Positions 3,101-35,094 of a stretch of 35,246 bases of DNA are shown one piece after another. The stretch is from the NCBI GenBank assembly GCA_022801925.1, contig JAAWTG010000029.1, positions 1 through 35,246 of the forward strand. The letters are read 5' to 3'. Position 1 is the first letter of the stretch, and the number at the start of each line of letters is the position of its first letter. Position numbers and translations under genes: made by a program. The stretch comes from Clostridia bacterium. Lineage in GTDB: Bacteria > Bacillota > Clostridia > RUG12999. Below the pieces are notes generated by a model. It worked only from the letters and a program-made list of their open reading frames with translations. It was not told the DNA's origin and ran no database searches.

Positions 3101-4302
3101 ACTGCCAACACGGTTTCTTTTTCCGTCACGTTTTCAAAAATCGGCTGCGGAATCAGATAATCTTTTTCATAAAATGCATTAATATTGCCGCCCCAACCAT
3201 AGAGTTCGTTGTCTGTTGTCATAACAACAACGGAATGGTCTGCAGACGTCATGATATAATGCGCGCGTTTGTTGGAATAGTTTACGCTGCCGGGACCAAA
3301 TGCAGCATAGGGAGTCGCACGGTCGTTGGGATGCACAAAATATTCATGGATTCGTCCATCGCTTTGCTGGGAAACCATCCATTCACCGTTTCCGAGTTTT
3401 CCGCCGGCGCTGCTACCCCACGTCCAGATCGTTCCTTTGTCGTCCAGCGCAACGACTGTATTATATTCTAAAGAAAGTTGTTTGATTTTTCTGCCGCTGA
3501 ATTCAGGGCGACTTGTTACCCGATATGGGGTTGTTTTGGGGATTTCCGTTTTGGTTTTGCCGTCCGCGCCCCAGCCGTTTGGAATCTGCCCACGGAGATT
3601 TTCTCCCCAACCAAATACCTCACCACTTTCCATTAACACTAAAACTGCGTTAATTGGTGTAGCAGGTGTACCCGTGCTAAGAGTAGCCGGACCGGAAACC
3701 CAGACTTCTTTAATCACTTCGTCTCTTCCGGTTGCGCTTTTAAACAGCGCCATCATTTCCGGTGTATCCACGCGATATTGATTATCTGGTGTACGCGGAA
3801 GTACCCACCATTGAATGCTGCCGTCTGTTGCCTGAACCTTTGCGCCCATACCAAAATATGCGCCAAAGGTGGCATCCAAAATTTTGCCACCATCAAACAG
3901 TTGCTGTCCGTTTGTCGGTTTTACCTCTGTCCATGTTGCGGTGGAAGCTTGATACAGTTTTCCTTCTTCGCTCACAGCCATACAGCCGCAATCGTGGAAT
4001 CCGGCTTTAATGACGCCGAAACCGCCGAAAACGGCGCGGTCAATTTTCGTGGGACTGGGATAGTTTTTCAATTCGCCGAGTCCCAAAGGTGATGTGCTGG
4101 CGTTGGTTCCCCATACGTAGAGGTCGCCATCGGTAATCTTAGCCATGACAGGATATCCCACCGATACGGAATGTGCGTCATGCAGCTCGTCCACCGTAGC
4201 CGTACGTGGTCGGGTCGAAGCTGCTGAAGCAACCATATTCGGCAGAACAAAAACAGAACAAAGCAGCGTCAACGCTAAGATAAGACTTACTTGTTTCTTC
4301 AT
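148..4302 (-). CDS. Secreted RCC1-repeat protein with cohesin-like and dockerin-like modules
   Basis: A 1384-residue exported protein. The ATG at 4302 is chosen because it follows AAGGAG and opens a signal peptide (MKKQVSLILALTLL, cleavage near ASA-AS). The longer frame to 4344 would put 14 charged residues in front of it. Residues about 60-420 hold RCC1-type repeats (LYVWGTN, VFGWGEN, IWTWGSS, LYGWGGN), a propeller fold used for protein contacts. A Pro/Thr-rich linker follows. Residues about 485-680 resemble a cohesin domain (VGQQFTLNIYMED, then FYMPITFDPSILQV). The long middle is beta-rich and unassigned, probably Ig-like. The last ~75 residues look like a dockerin: a first calcium loop GDLDGKRGIQYDDFNEY and a second loop around DENGATIININDLMLIN. 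It has no SLH repeat or sortase signal. It is transcribed divergently from the SLH operon. It may be a scaffold or adhesin on the cell surface; the partner is unknown. Confidence 0.85.
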   Translation of the reverse strand: MKKQVSLILALTLLCSVFVLPNMVASAASTRPRTATVDELHDAHSVSVGYPVMAKITDGDLYVWGTNASTSPLGLGELKNYPSPTKIDRAVFGGFGVIKAGFHDCGCMAVSEEGKLYQASTATWTEVKPTNGQQLFDGGKILDATFGAYFGMGAKVQATDGSIQWWVLPRTPDNQYRVDTPEMMALFKSATGRDEVIKEVWVSGPATLSTGTPATPINAVLVLMESGEVFGWGENLRGQIPNGWGADGKTKTEIPKTTPYRVTSRPEFSGRKIKQLSLEYNTVVALDDKGTIWTWGSSAGGKLGNGEWMVSQQSDGRIHEYFVHPNDRATPYAAFGPGSVNYSNKRAHYIMTSADHSVVVMTTDNELYGWGGNINAFYEKDYLIPQPIFENVTEKETVLAVRATNKAFYITTQSQDDYFAGDNSGGLAGNGSTSSTPTKEPEVTKPSNIPPTKPSSANKLFMTISTTTDSGLPIEYSAQANNINDLSIRVGQQFTLNIYMEDFAKLTGFYMPITFDPSILQVVNMDGVPYSADDVIRPGFNNGSGLRTNLTSGSNTPDSISTSWVNGVLTNNSRMPVVDNGNGYVSVMGTALLDKELISRITGQVKMFSIEFKAIQPTATVPTPQTTGFKLDGTPHDPMWADKPAKWYSTDLDISSDLDVGKDAVWEFDNVSFFESKFKVVEIKDMILNLYRDNDSLVTDIANDGSGKPDYYRIDKRSIESTYQLKAEVDPTNASWPNIDRWECEFMDSTSHASGASVSDYITVTKSDNDSKSFEFTIAPNISMSDAVLDDEGNFVPGYIKITGYGSHIPNKDNNPEGFRVAYIKITNDVPAPTGITITNKDGYLTGMGGKFLVNASTKLEFNDQGIEDLEDTYTFQAAFTAEDEEDFSTDVKWQLLRVLERNDDGSPKITEALGTDAKAPMVIAADSSNTNPKTPSCKVIAQNSTEDDDDIILKISSGVDPSIYDYVNVKVRLAPYEIVLPSDTITLVYGEGLKQTYDLADKVKVAPGDAKDYTIEYVKTVTAVDNRPDADRGDDAKRVAPNVIVTDAGVIEPVRADKDFHAQSYDEVTVQIQQTLNGTPLTLQKKLKVYTVDAVPPPNMYVDVINSKGTDYDYIKFSVGTNKSQLEVGDKLEIYRDYADTDAIATYTSLTADQIRMLFSPGYNVPVRTVNGDTYALNPVGGTIGYRLTKADGTTYKKTPVMYNPKALKLSGYIKLDTKSLTKATHDGITITINDVVGSDGKSISTTTKANGVLHGYFEFEEYISAKPHTMTISKTNYLTRQVMFTMPSTEDFEISTAEKPIVLYPGDLDGKRGIQYDDFNEYRINWVGRYNSRNENGVLLESFNFYDGSDENGATIININDLMLINMRMGALTSDYTPWLVN

Positions 4303-12591: not shown

Positions 12592-15500
12592 ATGAAGAAA
12601 TTAGTATCCTTGTTGCTCTGCACCGCGCTTGCCGCGGGCGGAGCGGCAGGTTTTGGATATGGAAGGGAGAGAAATGTGGTGATTGCGGCTGACACAGAAA
12701 ACACCTCCTTTGTGACGCTACCGGAAACCGGTGTGACGGTGGAAACCAATCCTACCGGCTATGCATATCAATCTCCGTATAACGAAGAAACAACGCTGGA
12801 TTTCACCGACCCGCAGTATATGAGCGACGAAGCGTTTTTCGGCGCGTGGGGCGGCGAAAAGTGGACAACAGCGCCGAAGCTGGACTATGAGAACTATATG
12901 GGTCTCAGCCAAGTGGAAAGCTATGCTATGGTCGGTGATTATGAGAGCGCCAAAAGCGCGTTGCTGCAATATTATCAGGAGCGGGAACTGCAATATGCAA
13001 GACCCACGATTGGCGCGAACAACAAAAAAGAAATTTTGACGGCGCAGCTTTTGAAACATAATTATACCTATAATGAAAACAGTAATGCGCAGCTGATTGA
13101 CATTGCCACGGTGGAAAGCCATGAATACAATGAACAGCAACCGGTGGAGGTGGACGTCACCTCATTTGTCAAAACGGTGCTGGATTCCACCACTACCGTG
13201 ATGCCGCTATATTTGACGGCGCGCAACAAAGACGGCGCACAAATTTCCATTCTGTCTAAAGAATATGGCGAGGGGAATTTGGGCGCGCGTATCAGCGTTG
13301 TCAGCAACGGCGTCACCACGGACTATGAAGTGAAAGAGGACGCTATGATTGCAGGCGGATACGGTAAAAATGCAAGCTATAACTACAAAGGAGCAACGGA
13401 ACTTTTGCTGGAGGAAAGCCTTTCTTCTGTCAATACGCGCACACCGAAGGAGGAAGGAGCGGGACAGCCGACAACCTTTCCGGTAGATGAAAATACACGG
13501 CGCGTGCATCTGAAATTTGATTTGGCGGGCGCGGGCGCGTCCAGCGACGTTGCGAGCGCAACACTGAAACTGTATGCCAAAATCAACGACAAGGAAAACC
13601 ATGTGGACAGAAAAGATATGGTGCTGTTCGTTACGAAAAACACCGACTGGAGTGAGGACACCGTTTCCTTTAACAGCACCAACCAATATATCTTTTCCTA
13701 TGAACACGAACCTTCCCTGCGGTGGCACCGTCCTTGGCTGGGTGCGGCGGGACACCGTTATACGGACGAACTGTATCGGTTCAACACCTATTTGAAACAC
13801 CCTATCGGACAGTATAACTATACGACCGAGGACAAAGAAGAATATGCCTATACTGCCCTGCGGCAGTGGGCGGAATTTATTCGCTGGAACGGCAGCAGCG
13901 CGGTAGCGCCGCAGAAACATTGGGCGGAAGGAAACGGCGACGAAGTAATTGACTCCTATTTGGGCGTTGCCTGCCGGAATCAGTTCATGCCGCAGGCGCT
14001 CTTTGCGCTGATTCATTCCAAGCACATGACGCCGGATTTGCTGACGGCTTCCATGAAATATTTGACGCTGACCGCAGACTATTCCTATAATCGCACACCG
14101 AATAAAAATAACATTGGGGCGCAGGAGATTTCAGGGCTATATAATGTAGGGCTCTGTTTCCGCGAAATGAAACGCGACTCTGTTTGGCAGGAACGTGCAA
14201 TCAGCCGTCTGCCTTCCTATACGCAGGGCTATATGATGAACGACGGCACCATCAAAGAGGTGGCGCTGGGATATGTGGACTATGCGCTGAACGGCATTTG
14301 GTCTGTGCAGGATTATGCGGAGCAAATGGACGAACGCGTGGAATACAGTGATGAAGTGAAAGCGGTCATGAAAACCATGGCGTATTACCTCATGCACGCT
14401 TCCGGTCCGGGCGGACGGGAGATTCAGCAGGGGGACGCTTATGGGTATTCCTCCACAGGTGTGAAAAACCAACTCAAAATCATTGCGGAGCTGACGGACG
14501 ACCCCTATATTTGGTACGTTGCGACAGATGGGCAGCGGGGACTGGAACCGGAGGACACCTCGGCAATGTATGCAGATGGCAAAAAATATACCATGCGCAG
14601 CGACTGGAACAAAGCGGCGGTCTTTTTACAGACCAATGCGGATAATGCTTATGAAAGCCATGGACACAAAGATGATCTATCCATTATTTTGTGGGGCTAT
14701 GACCAGTACTTGTTGGCAGACCCGCTCTATTCCAGCTATCAGGGCGGCACGGCGTCCACTTGGCTGACCGGTACCATGGGGCACAATACGGTCGTGGTGA
14801 ACAATGCCAGCCAGTCGGCTTCGGGAAAAACGGACAATCAGGGAATCACCAACAAATGGGAAGCAAATGATATCTATGATTTTGCGGATATCACCACCAA
14901 AAACTATAGCGGACAGGGTGTGAGCCATTCCAGAAAAATTTTGTTTGTGCGCCCGGGCTATTTTCTGGTGTTTGACCACATGAAACCAAGCAATGATACC
15001 GCGAAAAACTATAAACAATATTGGCATTTTCTGCCCGACGCGGATATCAGCATGAACGAAGAAACGGGCGTAGTACGGACGAATTTTCCGCGCGCGAACG
15101 TTCAAATAGCAACGGCGATGAAAGGCGGCATCACACCGACGCTGCGGGAGGATGGCTATTATGGTCTGGGACACTCCGGCGTTATCAACAACGTGAAATA
15201 TGCCTATTATGAGCAAAACGCCACAGAAGCGGCGACATATGAAACGCTGATTTATCCCGAAGAAGTCGGGAAACGCGGCTTGGTGCAAACCAAAGCGGAG
15301 GAAATTCCGCTGACCGGCGTGGCAGCCGGCGCGGCAAGCGCAATGCAATATGTCATTGACGACCGCGCGGACGGTGAAAAAACAGAAGGAACCGCCTATC
15401 TGGTGCACGAGAGCAGCGCGCAGACGGGCCGTATGGTGGGCGATTATGTGACGGACGCCTCTTTACTGCACGTTTCCCACAAAGCAGGAAAACTTTCCGA

Positions 15501-30201: not shown

Positions 30202-30376
30202 TTTAGGTGCGAACCCTAAGTGAACATGGAACCAGTGGGGGATTCGCACCTAAAAAATTTGAATATTTTGTACTTTTGGAGGACACAATGGAATGCTTTT
30301 TGAGAGCAGAGAGCGGACATTGTGCAAAAAAGATAAAGTGAGAAAGAAAATAGGTGAGATTTTGCCTATTTTTGCT
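30202..30376 (+). promoter_or_regulatory. CRISPR leader with a 12-base inverted repeat
   Basis: A non-coding AT-rich stretch just before the first repeat. It begins with a perfect inverted repeat (TTTAGGTGCGAA at 30202-30213 and TTCGCACCTAAA at 30243-30254). From memory, a hairpin of this kind often lies between cas2 and the first repeat in type I-C loci. Here an O-antigen ligase takes the place of cas2. The rest (30255-30376) should hold the array promoter and integration signals, but I see no clear -10/-35 pair. Confidence 0.7.
30288..30341 (+). other. Possible 17-codon leader mini-ORF
   Basis: ATG at 30288, six bases after GGAGG (30278-30282), opens MECFLRAESGHCAKKIK and a TGA. It lies inside the CRISPR leader. 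It could be chance, or a relic of a gene or leader peptide. No homology can be judged at this length. Confidence 0.25.
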
Positions 30377-33044
30377 GTCGCGACCCGTGAGGGTCGCGTG
30401 GATTGAAATTCTCATAGACCTTGTGGACAGTTTGGGTTCCCCCCATGGTCGCGACCCGTGAGGGTCGCGTGGATTGAAATTCTCCATCTTTGGTTACGCA
30501 ACTCCCTCCTGCACGTCGCGACCCGTGAGGGTCGCGTGGATTGAAATCTGCAAGTTTGGTCTTTTCCGCTGTGGTGTAATCAGTCGCGACCCGTGAGGGT
30601 CGCGTGGATTGAAATACCAAACCCGATTTTGATGTCGGAATCTAGCGGTGTCGCGACCCGTGAGGGTCGCGTGGATTGAAATCATGCCAAGGTCTAATAC
30701 TGCAACGCGAAATGCAGTCGCGACCCGTGAGGGTCGCGTGGATTGAAATCGTAAGGTTTATGAACAAGTGGCGCGCAAAAATGGTCGCGACCCGTGAGGG
30801 TCGCGTGGATTGAAATCACAGACGGAATAAACGGTATATCTGTTTTAGAGCGTCGCGACCCGTGAGGGTCGCGTGGATTGAAATTTGTATAAAAAAAGAA
30901 CCGTAAATTAACGGCTCCTTGTCGCGACCCGTGAGGGTCGCGTGGATTGAAATAGATGCATGGATAGCAAAACATCTTGGTATGGAGTCGCGACCCGTGA
31001 GGGTCGCGTGGATTGAAATATTGCCTGTACCATTGCGGGTTCCCGAATTGGTTCTGTCGCGACCCGTGAGGGTCGCGTGGATTGAAATTTCCCTTTTCCC
31101 AATTACCTATTGTACCATTTGAAGTCGCGACCCGTGAGGGTCGCGTGGATTGAAATTATATAGATTGATATAGAGCCGGACTTGATAATGTCGCGACCCG
31201 TGAGGGTCGCGTGGATTGAAATGCAAACAAATTGCAGAACTGCAAAAGCAACAAGGTCGCGACCCGTGAGGGTCGCGTGGATTGAAATCAATATTCGCGT
31301 ATTGTTTGGTCTACAAATTTTAGGGTCGCGACCCGTGAGGGTCGCGTGGATTGAAATTATAAAGCATACCAAGACCCGCAATTGATGAATGTCGCGACCC
31401 GTGAGGGTCGCGTGGATTGAAATCATTTAACTCTACCGGATTATCTGTATCATAACTAGGTCGCGACCCGTGAGGGTCGCGTGGATTGAAATTGGTGTCA
31501 CTGGAACGGTTAATCTATCGCCACCAGTCGCGACCCGTGAGGGTCGCGTGGATTGAAATTTAGAATGTGTTACCATATCCACCAAAGTATGAAGTCGCGA
31601 CCCGTGAGGGTCGCGTGGATTGAAATCTAATGCATTAGCAATCTTTTGGAGGGTTGCTGTAGGTCGCGACCCGTGAGGGTCGCGTGGATTGAAATATAAA
31701 ACGACGGTTGTCACGGCAGATAAACATTATGTCGCGACCCGTGAGGGTCGCGTGGATTGAAATCCCCTTTCCGTGATTAAAGTATATCATATAGCGCACG
31801 TCGCGACCCGTGAGGGTCGCGTGGATTGAAATAGCATTCCCGAACACCATATGTACTGTTGGGTTAGTCGCGACCCGTGAGGGTCGCGTGGATTGAAATT
31901 TCCGGCGCCACATCTGCCAGCAGGAGAAGTTTTGGTCGCGACCCGTGAGGGTCGCGTGGATTGAAATTTTTTCCTCCGGGTCTCTACGTGGCTTTTCCAT
32001 GCAGTCGCGACCCGTGAGGGTCGCGTGGATTGAAATACATAAAGGGGTGAAAACATTGGCAGACAGTGTAGTCGCGACCCGTGAGGGTCGCGTGGATTGA
32101 AATCGTCCTTGAACGTTATAGAGCCCATATCCAGAAGCGTCGCGACCCGTGAGGGTCGCGTGGATTGAAATCTATCACACGCTCATAATACCTAATATCA
32201 TCTTCGTCGCGACCCGTGAGGGTCGCGTGGATTGAAATCGTTGCGATTTGGAAAGAATTTGCGGGGGCTAGAGTCGCGACCCGTGAGGGTCGCGTGGATT
32301 GAAATAGAAGCTTATCCCGACAGTCCATTGCTGCAAGGAAGTCGCGACCCGTGAGGGTCGCGTGGATTGAAATATCTGGTGATACATATACCACAACTAC
32401 TACAGGCGCAGTCGCGACCCGTGAGGGTCGCGTGGATTGAAATTGCTATTTGGCAGCAGCGGGACGGGTGACACCCGACGTCGCGACCCGTGAGGGTCGC
32501 GTGGATTGAAATTTTGCTATGGCTTCTGCTATGTCTAATTCTGTTAGTCGCGACCCGTGAGGGTCGCGTGGATTGAAATCCCCTCACCCTCTGCATTGTC
32601 GATAGACCACAAGGGTCGCGACCCGTGAGGGTCGCGTGGATTGAAATAAGCTGTCTACCCAAGTTTTTACGGTGCTTTCGCTTGGTCGCGACCCGTGAGG
32701 GTCGCGTGGATTGAAATAAAATTTTATGCCGTTTATAGAGGCACTGATACAGTCGCGACCCGTGAGGGTCGCGTGGATTGAAATAAACTGATATAATATA
32801 GGGGCGGGGTCTGAATTGTCGCGACCCGTGAGGGTCGCGTGGATTGAAATTTCTTTGCAATGTATGAGAAAAACGGACGGCCGGTCGCGACCCGTGAGGG
32901 TCGCGTGGATTGAAATATTATGTTATCAAGCATAACAAGCAAGCCGACAGGCGTCGAGCCCTGTGAAGGGCTCGTGGATTAAAATAATGCGACTGATACC
33001 GTCTCGCTCTATTATGACAGTCGAGCCCTGTGAAGGGCTCGTGG
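30377..33044 (+). CRISPR. Type I-C-like CRISPR array, 40 repeats and 39 spacers
   Basis: Thirty-eight identical 33-base repeats run from 30377 to 32916, and two variant repeats follow at 32953-32985 and 33020-33044. The repeat starts with GT, folds as CGCGACCC-GTGA-GGGTCGCG (8-base stem) and ends in ATTGAAAT, the usual type I-C handle. Spacers are 33-38 bases, mostly 34-36, and none repeat. The variant repeats mark the old trailer end, so the leader is at the left and transcription runs rightward. There are no cas genes on either side. Minus-strand frames of the type ISIHATLTGRD are just the repeat translated and are not genes. Confidence 0.98.
32953..33044 (+). repeat. Two variant terminal CRISPR repeats
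   Basis: Both have the stem CGAGCCCT-GTGA-AGGGCTCG. Compared with the main repeat, three base pairs of the stem are exchanged on both arms (C-G to A-T, A-T to C-G, C-G to T-A). The first copy is full length (ATTAAAAT end). The second is cut after CGTGG at 33044. Confidence 0.9.
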
Positions 33045-33076
33045 TTTCGTGCAACATTTGTTTTTGCACAAGGAAA

Positions 33077-33104
33077 AAGACGCAGACCGAAAGGTCTGCG
33101 TCTT
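33077..33104. terminator. Strong hairpin terminator beyond the array
   Basis: AAGACGCAGACC and GGTCTGCGTCTT make a perfect 12-base stem with a GAAA loop. On the minus strand it continues into TTTCC and ends the nuclease gene. On the plus strand it is followed by AAATTTTATTT and may also stop array transcripts. Confidence 0.8.
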
Positions 33105-33109
33105 AAATT

Positions 33110-33748
33110 TTATTTATCCTGATTATTCCATTCGTTTAGTACAGATTCAACCTGCCTGATAAGTTGTTCTTTATTCGGAATATAGGAAACATATCTTGAC
33201 GCGAAGATGTTATTTGACAAACCGCCAAGTGCATATTCCGCCGCAACGCTGTCCTTGTCGGTACAAAGGATAATACCGATAGGAGGAGCGTCGTGTTCAT
33301 CGTTTACTTCGGAAGCATAATAATTCAAATACATATTTAATTGTCCGATTGCTTCCGGCATTAGCTTTGTTGTTTTCAGCTCTATCAGTACATAGGCGTG
33401 CAGTATCTTATTATAAAATACCATATCGACATAGTAGTGCGTATTGTTGAGGGTTATCCGCTGTTGTGTTCCGACAAACATAAAGCCTCGTCCCAATTCA
33501 AGCAAAAACTTTTCAATTTGTGTAACTAATGCTTTTTCAAGGTCACTTTCCAGCATAGGTTTATTTTCGGGTACTCCTAAAAACTCAAATACATATGGGT
33601 CTTTAATGATGTCGCTTGGCTCTGCCATTTCAATTCCTTTTTGAGAAAGGGCAAGCACCGTTTCTTTGTTTGCCTTTCCGTCCGACAGCAATAACCGCTC
33701 ATACAAAGAGGTTGCAATTTGACGCTTCAGCTCACGGACAGACCAGCC
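33110..33748 (-). pseudogene. C-terminal part of a broken DUF1016/YhcG PD-(D/E)XK nuclease gene
   Basis: About 213 codons in frame from 33748 (GWSVRELKRQIATSLYERL) to the stop at 33110. It carries the nuclease half of YhcG-type proteins: YYVDMVFYNK with the metal-binding Asp, IELKTTK with the E-x-K pair, and QLNMYLNYY. It has no start or binding site of its own; the first TTG is at 33706, inside a conserved helix. It must once have been joined to the upstream fragment, and a frame shift at about 33746-33752 now separates them. YhcG/DUF1016 proteins are widespread in variable defence or mobile regions. Confidence 0.85.
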
Positions 33749-34122
33749 TGAATTTCATAAAAGCTGCGCTTGTCTTTATCGGATATTGCTAACAACTCAC
33801 AATAATGCGTCCACGTCAATTTGCCAGTCAGTGACTGGCATTTTTCGTAATTCAAATATAGCGCCCGCATATTTTGAAGATTGGAACGGGAAAATCCCTT
33901 GCCAAATTCGTTTGTTAATTCTTTTGCCAATTCTTTTAATGTTTGTTTACCATATTCGGCGCGAACTTGATTTTGCTGTTCATGTTCAACAATAATTCTG
34001 CCAACATTCCAATAGGTATTTAATAATTCCGTATTTACAGTGGCGACTACACGCCCTCTTGCCGCTGCAAGCAATTCTTTTATTTCCTGTATCATATCCT
34101 TATTATTGATTAGTCCATTCAT
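33727..34122 (-). pseudogene. N-terminal part of the broken DUF1016/YhcG nuclease gene
   Basis: About 131 codons from ATG 34122 (GAGG nine bases upstream; the in-frame TTG at 34137 overlaps that site) to TGA at 33727. It matches the DUF1016 N-terminal helical domain (TYWNVGRIIVEHEQ, YGKQTLKELAKELTNEFGKGFSRSNL, LTWTHYCELLAI). After FYEIQA it runs out of frame, and the other frame resumes with GWSVREL. About two or three residues of the usual linker also seem to be missing, so an 8-10 base deletion fits. The two halves together are close to full length. Confidence 0.85.
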
Positions 34123-34156
34123 AAATATGTACCTCAATATTGCATTTTATAAATAT

Positions 34157-34266: not shown

Positions 34267-34611
34267 TTATATTTCGTCAATGCCACAAGATTTTATATAC
34301 GCTTTTATTATTTCCATAAGATGAGATGATTGTTCATTTGTTAACTGTTTCAGATAATAATGCAACGCTGTTTCTACATCGTTTGGAGATGTACCAAATA
34401 ACAGATAATCTGCGTTAATATCTAGTGCCTTGCATATCTCTCTCAGTTTGGGAACAGATATACCACTGCATCCACGTTCTATATTTGACACATGAGTACC
34501 ATTAGAAACATTTATCTTTTCGGCAAACTTTTCTTGGGAAATATTCCTTTTGAGTCTAATTTCCTTTATTCTTGTACCGATACTTTTGTATAATGGATTG
34601 CATTTCTGCAT
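34267..34611 (-). CDS. XRE-family transcriptional regulator, copy 1
   Basis: A 114-residue protein with an N-terminal Cro/CI-type helix-turn-helix (IGTRIKEIRLKRNISQEKFA, then THVSNIERGCSGISVPKLREICKALD), followed by YLLFG and a C-terminal helical tail (HYYLKQLTNEQ, EIIKAYIKSCGIDE). It is preceded by AAGGTGATAAT and an ATG. The neighbour at 34744 is a close paralogue on the same strand. It likely represses its own or an adjacent mobile or defence gene. Confidence 0.9.
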   Translation of the reverse strand: MQKCNPLYKSIGTRIKEIRLKRNISQEKFAEKINVSNGTHVSNIERGCSGISVPKLREICKALDINADYLLFGTSPNDVETALHYYLKQLTNEQSSHLMEIIKAYIKSCGIDEI

Positions 34612-34743: not shown

Positions 34744-35094
34744 TCAATCTTTATTTTCATCGATGCCGCAAGCCTTTATATATGCCTTTATTATATCTAT
34801 AAGACAAATAGACTGTTCAGCGGTTAACTGTTTTAAATAATAATGTAGTGGAGTTTCTACATCGCTTGTGGAAATGCCAAATAACAGATAGTCTGCGTTG
34901 ATATCTAATGTTTTACATATAGCTACGAGTCTTGGAACGGATATACCACTGGCACCACGTTCTATATTTGATATATGAGTTCCGCTACAAACACCTATTT
35001 TTTCAGCAAACTTTTCTTGGGAAATATTTCTTTTCATTCTAATTTCTTTTATTCTTTTACCAATAGCGATATTTAATGTATCATCTTTTTGCAT
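34744..35094 (-). CDS. XRE-family transcriptional regulator, copy 2
   Basis: A 116-residue paralogue of the gene at 34267, alike over its whole length (shared EKFAEKI, NIERG, SGISVP, LDINADYLLFG, HYYLKQLT, IIKAYIK-CGIDE). The helix-turn-helix is at residues ~10-65. The start has GTGAGGT upstream. The second helix differs (GVCSGTHISN against NVSNGTHVSN), so the two may read different operators. Tandem duplication with divergence is the simplest origin. It is divergent from the off-window gene on the right. Confidence 0.9.
   Translation of the reverse strand: MQKDDTLNIAIGKRIKEIRMKRNISQEKFAEKIGVCSGTHISNIERGASGISVPRLVAICKTLDINADYLLFGISTSDVETPLHYYLKQLTAEQSICLIDIIKAYIKACGIDENKD

Follow-up and report, generated by a model that had tools for sequence, protein, structure and literature searches.

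The DNA analyzed here (the window) is a stretch of 35,246 nucleotides from a Clostridia bacterium, corresponding to contig C30 of a 2.95-Mb genome assembled in 96 contigs (G000). At positions 30377–33044 it carries a type I-C CRISPR array of 40 repeats on the forward strand. The array is oriented with its leader to the left and its trailer to the right, as shown by the tail GTGGATTGAAAT at the end of the repeats and by a leader conserved across species before position 30377. This leader (30206–30376) ends with TTTTGCCTATTTTTGCT, and its BLAST match starts at 30206. It is followed by 38 identical repeats of 33 nt (30377–32916; GTCGCGACCCGTGAGGGTCGCGTGGATTGAAAT) with spacers of 33–38 nt. Each of these main repeats, designated M, contains an 8-bp hairpin with the stem CGCGACCC-GTGA-GGGTCGCG in front of the tail. 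An ordinary spacer of 36 nt (32917–32952), in which no remnant of a leader was found, separates the last M repeat from the final two repeats of the array, which bear the stem CGAGCCCT-GTGA-AGGGCTCG and are designated V.

The two V repeats also differ in details that were overlooked in a preliminary description of this DNA. The penultimate repeat (V*, 32953–32985) has, besides three compensated pairs in the stem, the substitution G29A in the tail (GGATTAAAAT). After a spacer of 34 nt (32986–33019), the terminal repeat (33020–33044) retains the full hairpin but is truncated after GTGG, so that 25 nt are left, followed by TTTCGTGC, and is fused to the flank TTTCGTGCAACATTTG. Ordinary trailer wear is therefore present in both V repeats as well, as one tail substitution and one truncation. 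In the trailer flank (33045–33105), a GTGCAA/TTGCAC hairpin and a terminator-like inverted repeat (GACGCAGACC-GAAA-GGTCTGCGTC) were read from the sequence. Further downstream, two tandem paralogous HTH_3 regulators are located at 34267–34611 and 34744–35094, showing 79% identity over 300 nt of DNA.

The genome encodes one complete I-C operon with the order cas3-cas5-cas8c-cas7-cas4-cas1-cas2. PADLOC assigned Cas8c (E=3.5e-146), Cas7c (E=6.6e-108), Cas5c (E=1.7e-73), and Cas3c (E=5e-198) in this single operon, and no cas6 was found among its open frames, in agreement with the type I-C signature of cas8c (csd1), cas7 (csd2), and cas5c together with cas3. Also, the repeats combine the stem-loop and the ATTGAAA(T/C) tail of type I-C, in which Cas5c would be expected to cut at the 3′ base of the hairpin. 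For comparison, two relatives of the same genus were used, G001 and G002, both metagenome-assembled genomes (MAGs) listed as "uncultured Clostridia bacterium". G000, G001, and G002 each yielded a single match for Cas1 and a single match for Cas5. The Cas proteins of G000 and G001 are 96–100% identical (Cas1 99%, Cas2 100%, Cas5 97%). A different cas operon as the driver of the repeat change was rejected on the basis of these single and nearly identical Cas1 and Cas5 proteins. Behind the cas operon, a third leader and an array with a third stem family are present (CGTGCTC-TACGC-GAGCACG, tail GTGGGTTGAAAT; G000:C83 (L094), 14173–14650). The older repeats of this array have another stem apex and loop (CATGTGA), which they have in common with a remnant in G001:C43.

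Compared to M, the V repeats differ in six stem substitutions (columns 5, 7, 10, 15, 18, and 20; six of the 22 hairpin positions) which, as stated in the preliminary description, amount to exactly three exchanged base pairs, with all eight pairs and the GTGA loop kept. From M to V, a C-G pair is replaced by A-T (32957/32972), an A-T pair by C-G (32959/32970), and a C-G pair by T-A (32962/32967). These are pairs 3, 5, and 8 counted from the base of the hairpin, while the two basal pairs (1 and 2) as well as the tail are unchanged. RNA folding predicts the same 8-bp hairpin for M and V (−16.8 and −15.6 kcal/mol), and hybrids with swapped arms break it (−12.1 and −8.1 kcal/mol). The chance that six random substitutions in 16 stem positions result in three complete Watson-Crick pairs is about 2.6e-4. 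In the CRISPRmap summary of repeat mutations for the I-C system of Bacillus halodurans, the upper stem and the loop are given as dispensable, and the stem base and the 3′ end as needed (PMC3783184). The differences between M and V are confined to this tolerant part and thus fit the reported mutations.

Searching 84,980 species genomes, exact V was found outside G000 only in the two MAGs G001 and G002, and an import of V from a distant host was rejected as no exact V occurred outside the genus. Among 60 relatives, no V within two mismatches was detected outside the genus, and neither M nor V was among the listed repeats of 391 sampled genomes of the class, the listing giving the first places of each itemised genome. 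Exact viral matches were found neither for M, nor for the V hairpin, nor for the 34-nt spacer between the V repeats, the latter searched in IMG/VR. The three genomes are fragmented assemblies, and at least two are MAGs. Contig ends interrupt arrays 1 and 2 in G001 and array 2 in G000. In G001, array 1 and the two ends of array 2 are located on different contigs and were assigned by flanking genes.

The comparison with related genomes proposed in the preliminary description revealed V as a main repeat. On contig G001:C101 (array 2), 47 perfect V copies are present, followed at the old end by one worn M-like repeat (GTCGCGACCTGTGAGGGTCACAG) with 3/22 differences from M and 6 from V. Thereby the genus has an otherwise unmixed array of V under the same Cas type, and its order is the reverse of that in array 1. 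A trailer orthologue of this array was found in neither G000 nor G002. The orthologue of the trailer of the window array (array 1) in the sister species G001 lies on G001:C51 and has the same flank TTTCGTGCAACATTTGTTTTTGCACAAGG; the trailer flank of the window is conserved in G001 and partly in G002. Towards the trailer, this end of array 1 in G001 consists of nine M, five V, one M, and three V repeats, so that M and V alternate in blocks. The fifth V of the block carries the same G29A, and the last three V are worn, the final one being fused to the flank. Accordingly, in G000 as well as in G001, the repeat that closes the array at this flank is a V. One old M lies below a V block in array 1 of G001; in the window array no M lies below V. 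In G002, V with G29A was found in a remnant array beside an M-like repeat (G002:C143), and V-like and M-like repeats were found on G002:C377. The V* marker thus occurs in three species, each time beside different spacers.

V is a coherent repeat family and not a product of decay. That trailer repeats often vary (PMC8047081) and that the genomes are fragmented assemblies could speak for ordinary trailer decay or a misassembled array. However, the three changes are all compensated and occur identically in the two terminal repeats, V is a perfect main repeat elsewhere, and two assemblies independently show V on the same flank, which leaves this explanation hardly credible. Random decay of the trailer repeats, already considered an improbable source in the preliminary description, is refuted by V being the main repeat in G001. 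The suggestion made there that a distinct, coherent repeat type was present first is also supported, since V is a main repeat in G001 and the terminal repeat on the shared flank in both species.

No INTERMEDIATES were found among the 136 repeats compared in the three species. At the six discriminating columns, 73 of the 136 were pure M and 58 pure V. The remaining five were worn copies: a worn V in terminal position, single remnants on C377 and on C41, and two V-like remnants that have a third base at one of the columns. The finding named in the preliminary description as speaking against a distinct family, namely intermediates with stepwise changes in relatives, was thus absent, as 131 of the 136 repeats were pure M or V. 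The leader-proximal repeat might also have evolved step by step through compensatory changes, later deletions of spacers having removed the intermediates. This would be in line with the compensated changes found when I-C repeats are compared across genera of the class, which lie at a similar distance (means of 2.4 compensated pairs and 7.5 differences, compared to three and six between M and V). Such a course is nevertheless very improbable, given 0 intermediates in 136 repeats and the back-and-forth of M and V in G001, for which the same six changes and their reversals would be needed more than once.

The leaders allowed the state of the repeat at the growing end to be compared. Leader 1 is orthologous in all three species and located behind the same O-antigen-ligase-like gene (G001:C138, 89% identity over the last 200 nt; G002:C245, 81%). 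The paralogous leader before array 2 shares 60–64% with leader 1. Directly behind leader 1, both G000 and G001 have an M repeat, and G002 has an M with the loop GCAA; the end of G001:C138 past the second repeat resembles assembly noise. Leader 2 follows the same sulfatase-like gene in G000:C38 and G001:C51, where it closes a block of about 18 kb that is about 91–96% identical between the two contigs. The two copies of leader 2 share 90% identity, which rises to 95% in the final 60 nt, but the first repeat is M in G000:C38 and V in G001:C51. Therefore, the repeat allele changed while the leader remained the same. In G001, leader 2 retains its leader-2 character nearly up to the repeat.

These data can be explained by considering M and V as interchangeable hairpin alleles of one I-C system, with the leader-proximal repeat replaced as a whole and then copied, a reading to which we assign a probability of about 0.6. 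During adaptation, the leader-proximal repeat is copied. With each new repeat copied from this one, the allele adjoining the leader would fill the array from the leader end, and the trailer would record an earlier allele because the replaced repeat is copied at each acquisition. The two terminal V repeats of the window would then be the oldest surviving units, made while V adjoined the leader; later, the leader-proximal repeat would have been swapped for M in one step and 38 M units added. Both arms would have to change together, as half-replaced hairpins fold poorly. This whole-hairpin replacement matches the blocks, the lack of intermediates, the unchanged leaders, and the unchanged Cas proteins. 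One nearly unchanged machinery presumably serves both alleles, because G001 keeps long arrays of M as well as of V. From these large arrays of each type, Cas5c (Cas5d) and Cas1-Cas2 can be expected to accept both.

For the replacement itself, a short gene conversion or a recombination between arrays may be assumed. A conversion from another array is plausible because the stem is flanked by shared sequence on both sides: the leader ends have TCTATTTTTGCT/CCTATTTTTGCT (at least the last 12 nt) and GTCG before the stem in common, and the 13-nt tail CGTGGATTGAAAT follows it. Between donor and recipient array, the converted tract would be very short (the stem and perhaps <20 nt of leader), because leader 2 of G001 keeps its character almost to the repeat. 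A recurrent and bidirectional switching of the leader-proximal allele within the genus by such conversion between arrays, with selection permitting only replacements of the whole hairpin, is put forward tentatively, at somewhat less than even odds. The data point to repeated switching rather than to a single change of the repeat type. The preliminary description had suggested an older family with the present one growing in front of it. V is indeed oldest in the window array, but a single old layer under a single new one does not agree with the repeated alternation of blocks in G001. The merger of two arrays suggested there is neither needed nor shown, as no leader remnant lies at the M/V boundary, no spacers are shared, and the alternation in G001 is repeated. 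The G29A marker, present in three species beside different spacers, is unexplained by the simple replacement model.

Arrays 1 and 2 of G001 have the same orientation and lie about 18 kb apart, so that M and V blocks together with their spacers might also have been moved between arrays or strains by crossing over at repeats. The mosaic would then be a patchwork of segments, and a few exchanges would yield the M/V alternation of array 1 in G001. However, no spacer common to different arrays or species was found among 123 compared, M and V share only 13 contiguous nt as a short target, and the switch at the leader of array 2 in G001 would need an exchange of the leader-adjacent unit without the leader. 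We therefore regard such an exchange of blocks as unlikely, though it is the strongest of the alternatives. In array 1, one spacer of G000 resembles one of G001 (20 nt at 95%) without being the same, and the two probably represent related targets captured independently.

Another mechanism has been shown for type I-F of Legionella pneumophila, where an array collapses and the refilled array adopts the alternate sequence of the last repeat (PMC7056967). Here, the first repeat would recombine with an older internal repeat of the other allele, the units between them would be lost, and the old allele would refill the array; array 1 of G001 does contain old repeats of both alleles. However, M and V are identical chiefly in the 3′ tail, and a crossover at this site would leave the leader-side stem as it was. 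Also, this route cannot give V to array 2 of G001, in which the oldest surviving repeat is M, and it leaves the origin of the second allele unexplained. It is thus improbable, more so than an exchange of blocks.

In order to estimate how common mixed arrays are, 18 array regions were inspected in 16 further genomes of the class with I-C systems, taken from the matches listed. Most of them had one stem throughout. A well-paired repeat with two compensated pairs occurred only in a badly worn remnant (G167). Two single I-C arrays of other genera, G261:C6 (L119) and G315:C65 (L126), alternate in blocks between milder variants, with the loop ACAC or GCAT and with A or G in the tail (GGATT/GGGTT). 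Block alternation is therefore not unique to the genus, and the three-pair exchange in an intact array is exceptional in this sample of 18 regions. The milder alternation suggests that such switching may be general in I-C systems.

The system resembles known I-C systems in its complete cas operon in the same genome, 33-nt repeats, 8-bp hairpin, GTGGATTGAAAT tail, and spacers of 33–38 nt, and differs by two stem alleles in one array and one genome and by the third family beside the cas operon. Mixed repeats within an array are already known from Pyrobaculum, where direct repeats (DR) of different types form clustered blocks in one array with one Cas type, and copying of the leader-proximal repeat from another array was proposed (PMC3396285). 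The DR mixing described there is recognized by repeat families clustered in one array with one leader, as found here for the 38 M and two V repeats of G000 and the alternating blocks of G001, with leader 1 being orthologous. The variation in Pyrobaculum lies in the A-rich core or the 5′ motif of archaeal type I and III arrays, whereas in the present bacterial I-C array the exchanges concern fully compensated stem pairs, and two species differ in the allele behind an orthologous leader. The L. pneumophila case is similar in that an alternate variant takes over as main repeat via the leader-proximal position. Its last-repeat variants are single-nucleotide changes, in contrast to the six coordinated substitutions, the alternation within an array, and the opposite states in two arrays of one genome observed here. 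Degenerate terminal repeats, e.g. in Streptococcus agalactiae (PMC4466440), likewise vary at the trailer end, and the last repeat of the window is also 3′-truncated. A degenerate terminal repeat would not be expected to serve elsewhere as main repeat; V has an intact stem and is the main repeat of an array in G001, and is thus not a degeneration. New here are the compensated stem exchange in a bacterial I-C system, the alternation within an array, the opposite states in two arrays, and the orthologous leader with different alleles.

It is poorly understood how the repeats of CRISPR arrays come to differ between species although they stay identical within an array. Here, M and V are about as different as I-C repeats of different genera, and yet they are alternative states of the same array and, in sister species, of an orthologous leader with nearly the same Cas proteins. 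The M/V case thereby separates repeat turnover from Cas co-evolution. If the replacement reading is true, a CRISPR array records the history of its own repeat in addition to past invaders. M and V also provide natural material to study which repeat positions are read by Cas5c and Cas1-Cas2. Furthermore, caution is advised when arrays are typed or clustered by repeat sequence alone.

Some further observations concern neighboring genes and side loci. Just past the trailer in G000, a YhcG/DUF1016 nuclease gene (33110–34137) is split into two frames (YhcG_C, 33110–33706; DUF1016_N, 33727–34137) and is therefore probably broken. The oldest spacer of the G001 array copy (G001:C51:18050-18083) matches this gene at window positions 33820–33853 (minus strand) with 34/34 identity. 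The triplet before this 34-nt protospacer is TTT, compared to TTC reported for I-C. The gene is missing from the corresponding place in G001, and the 34-nt site was not detected elsewhere in that genome. A remnant array in G000 (G000:C41 (L095), 3490–3717) contains four repeats with four different stems and nearly the same tail. On the reverse strand of G002:C377 (L100), at 146–1681, tandem units of about 550 bp are made up of repeats resembling V and M, of a truncated repeat together with the trailer flank, and of a short hydrophobic ORF (MENILEYTMIIIVLLLLKEILKYIKK), which by eye appears type I toxin-like. Similar ORFs are located at G000:C50 and G001:C10, where G002:C143 has the CRISPR remnant.
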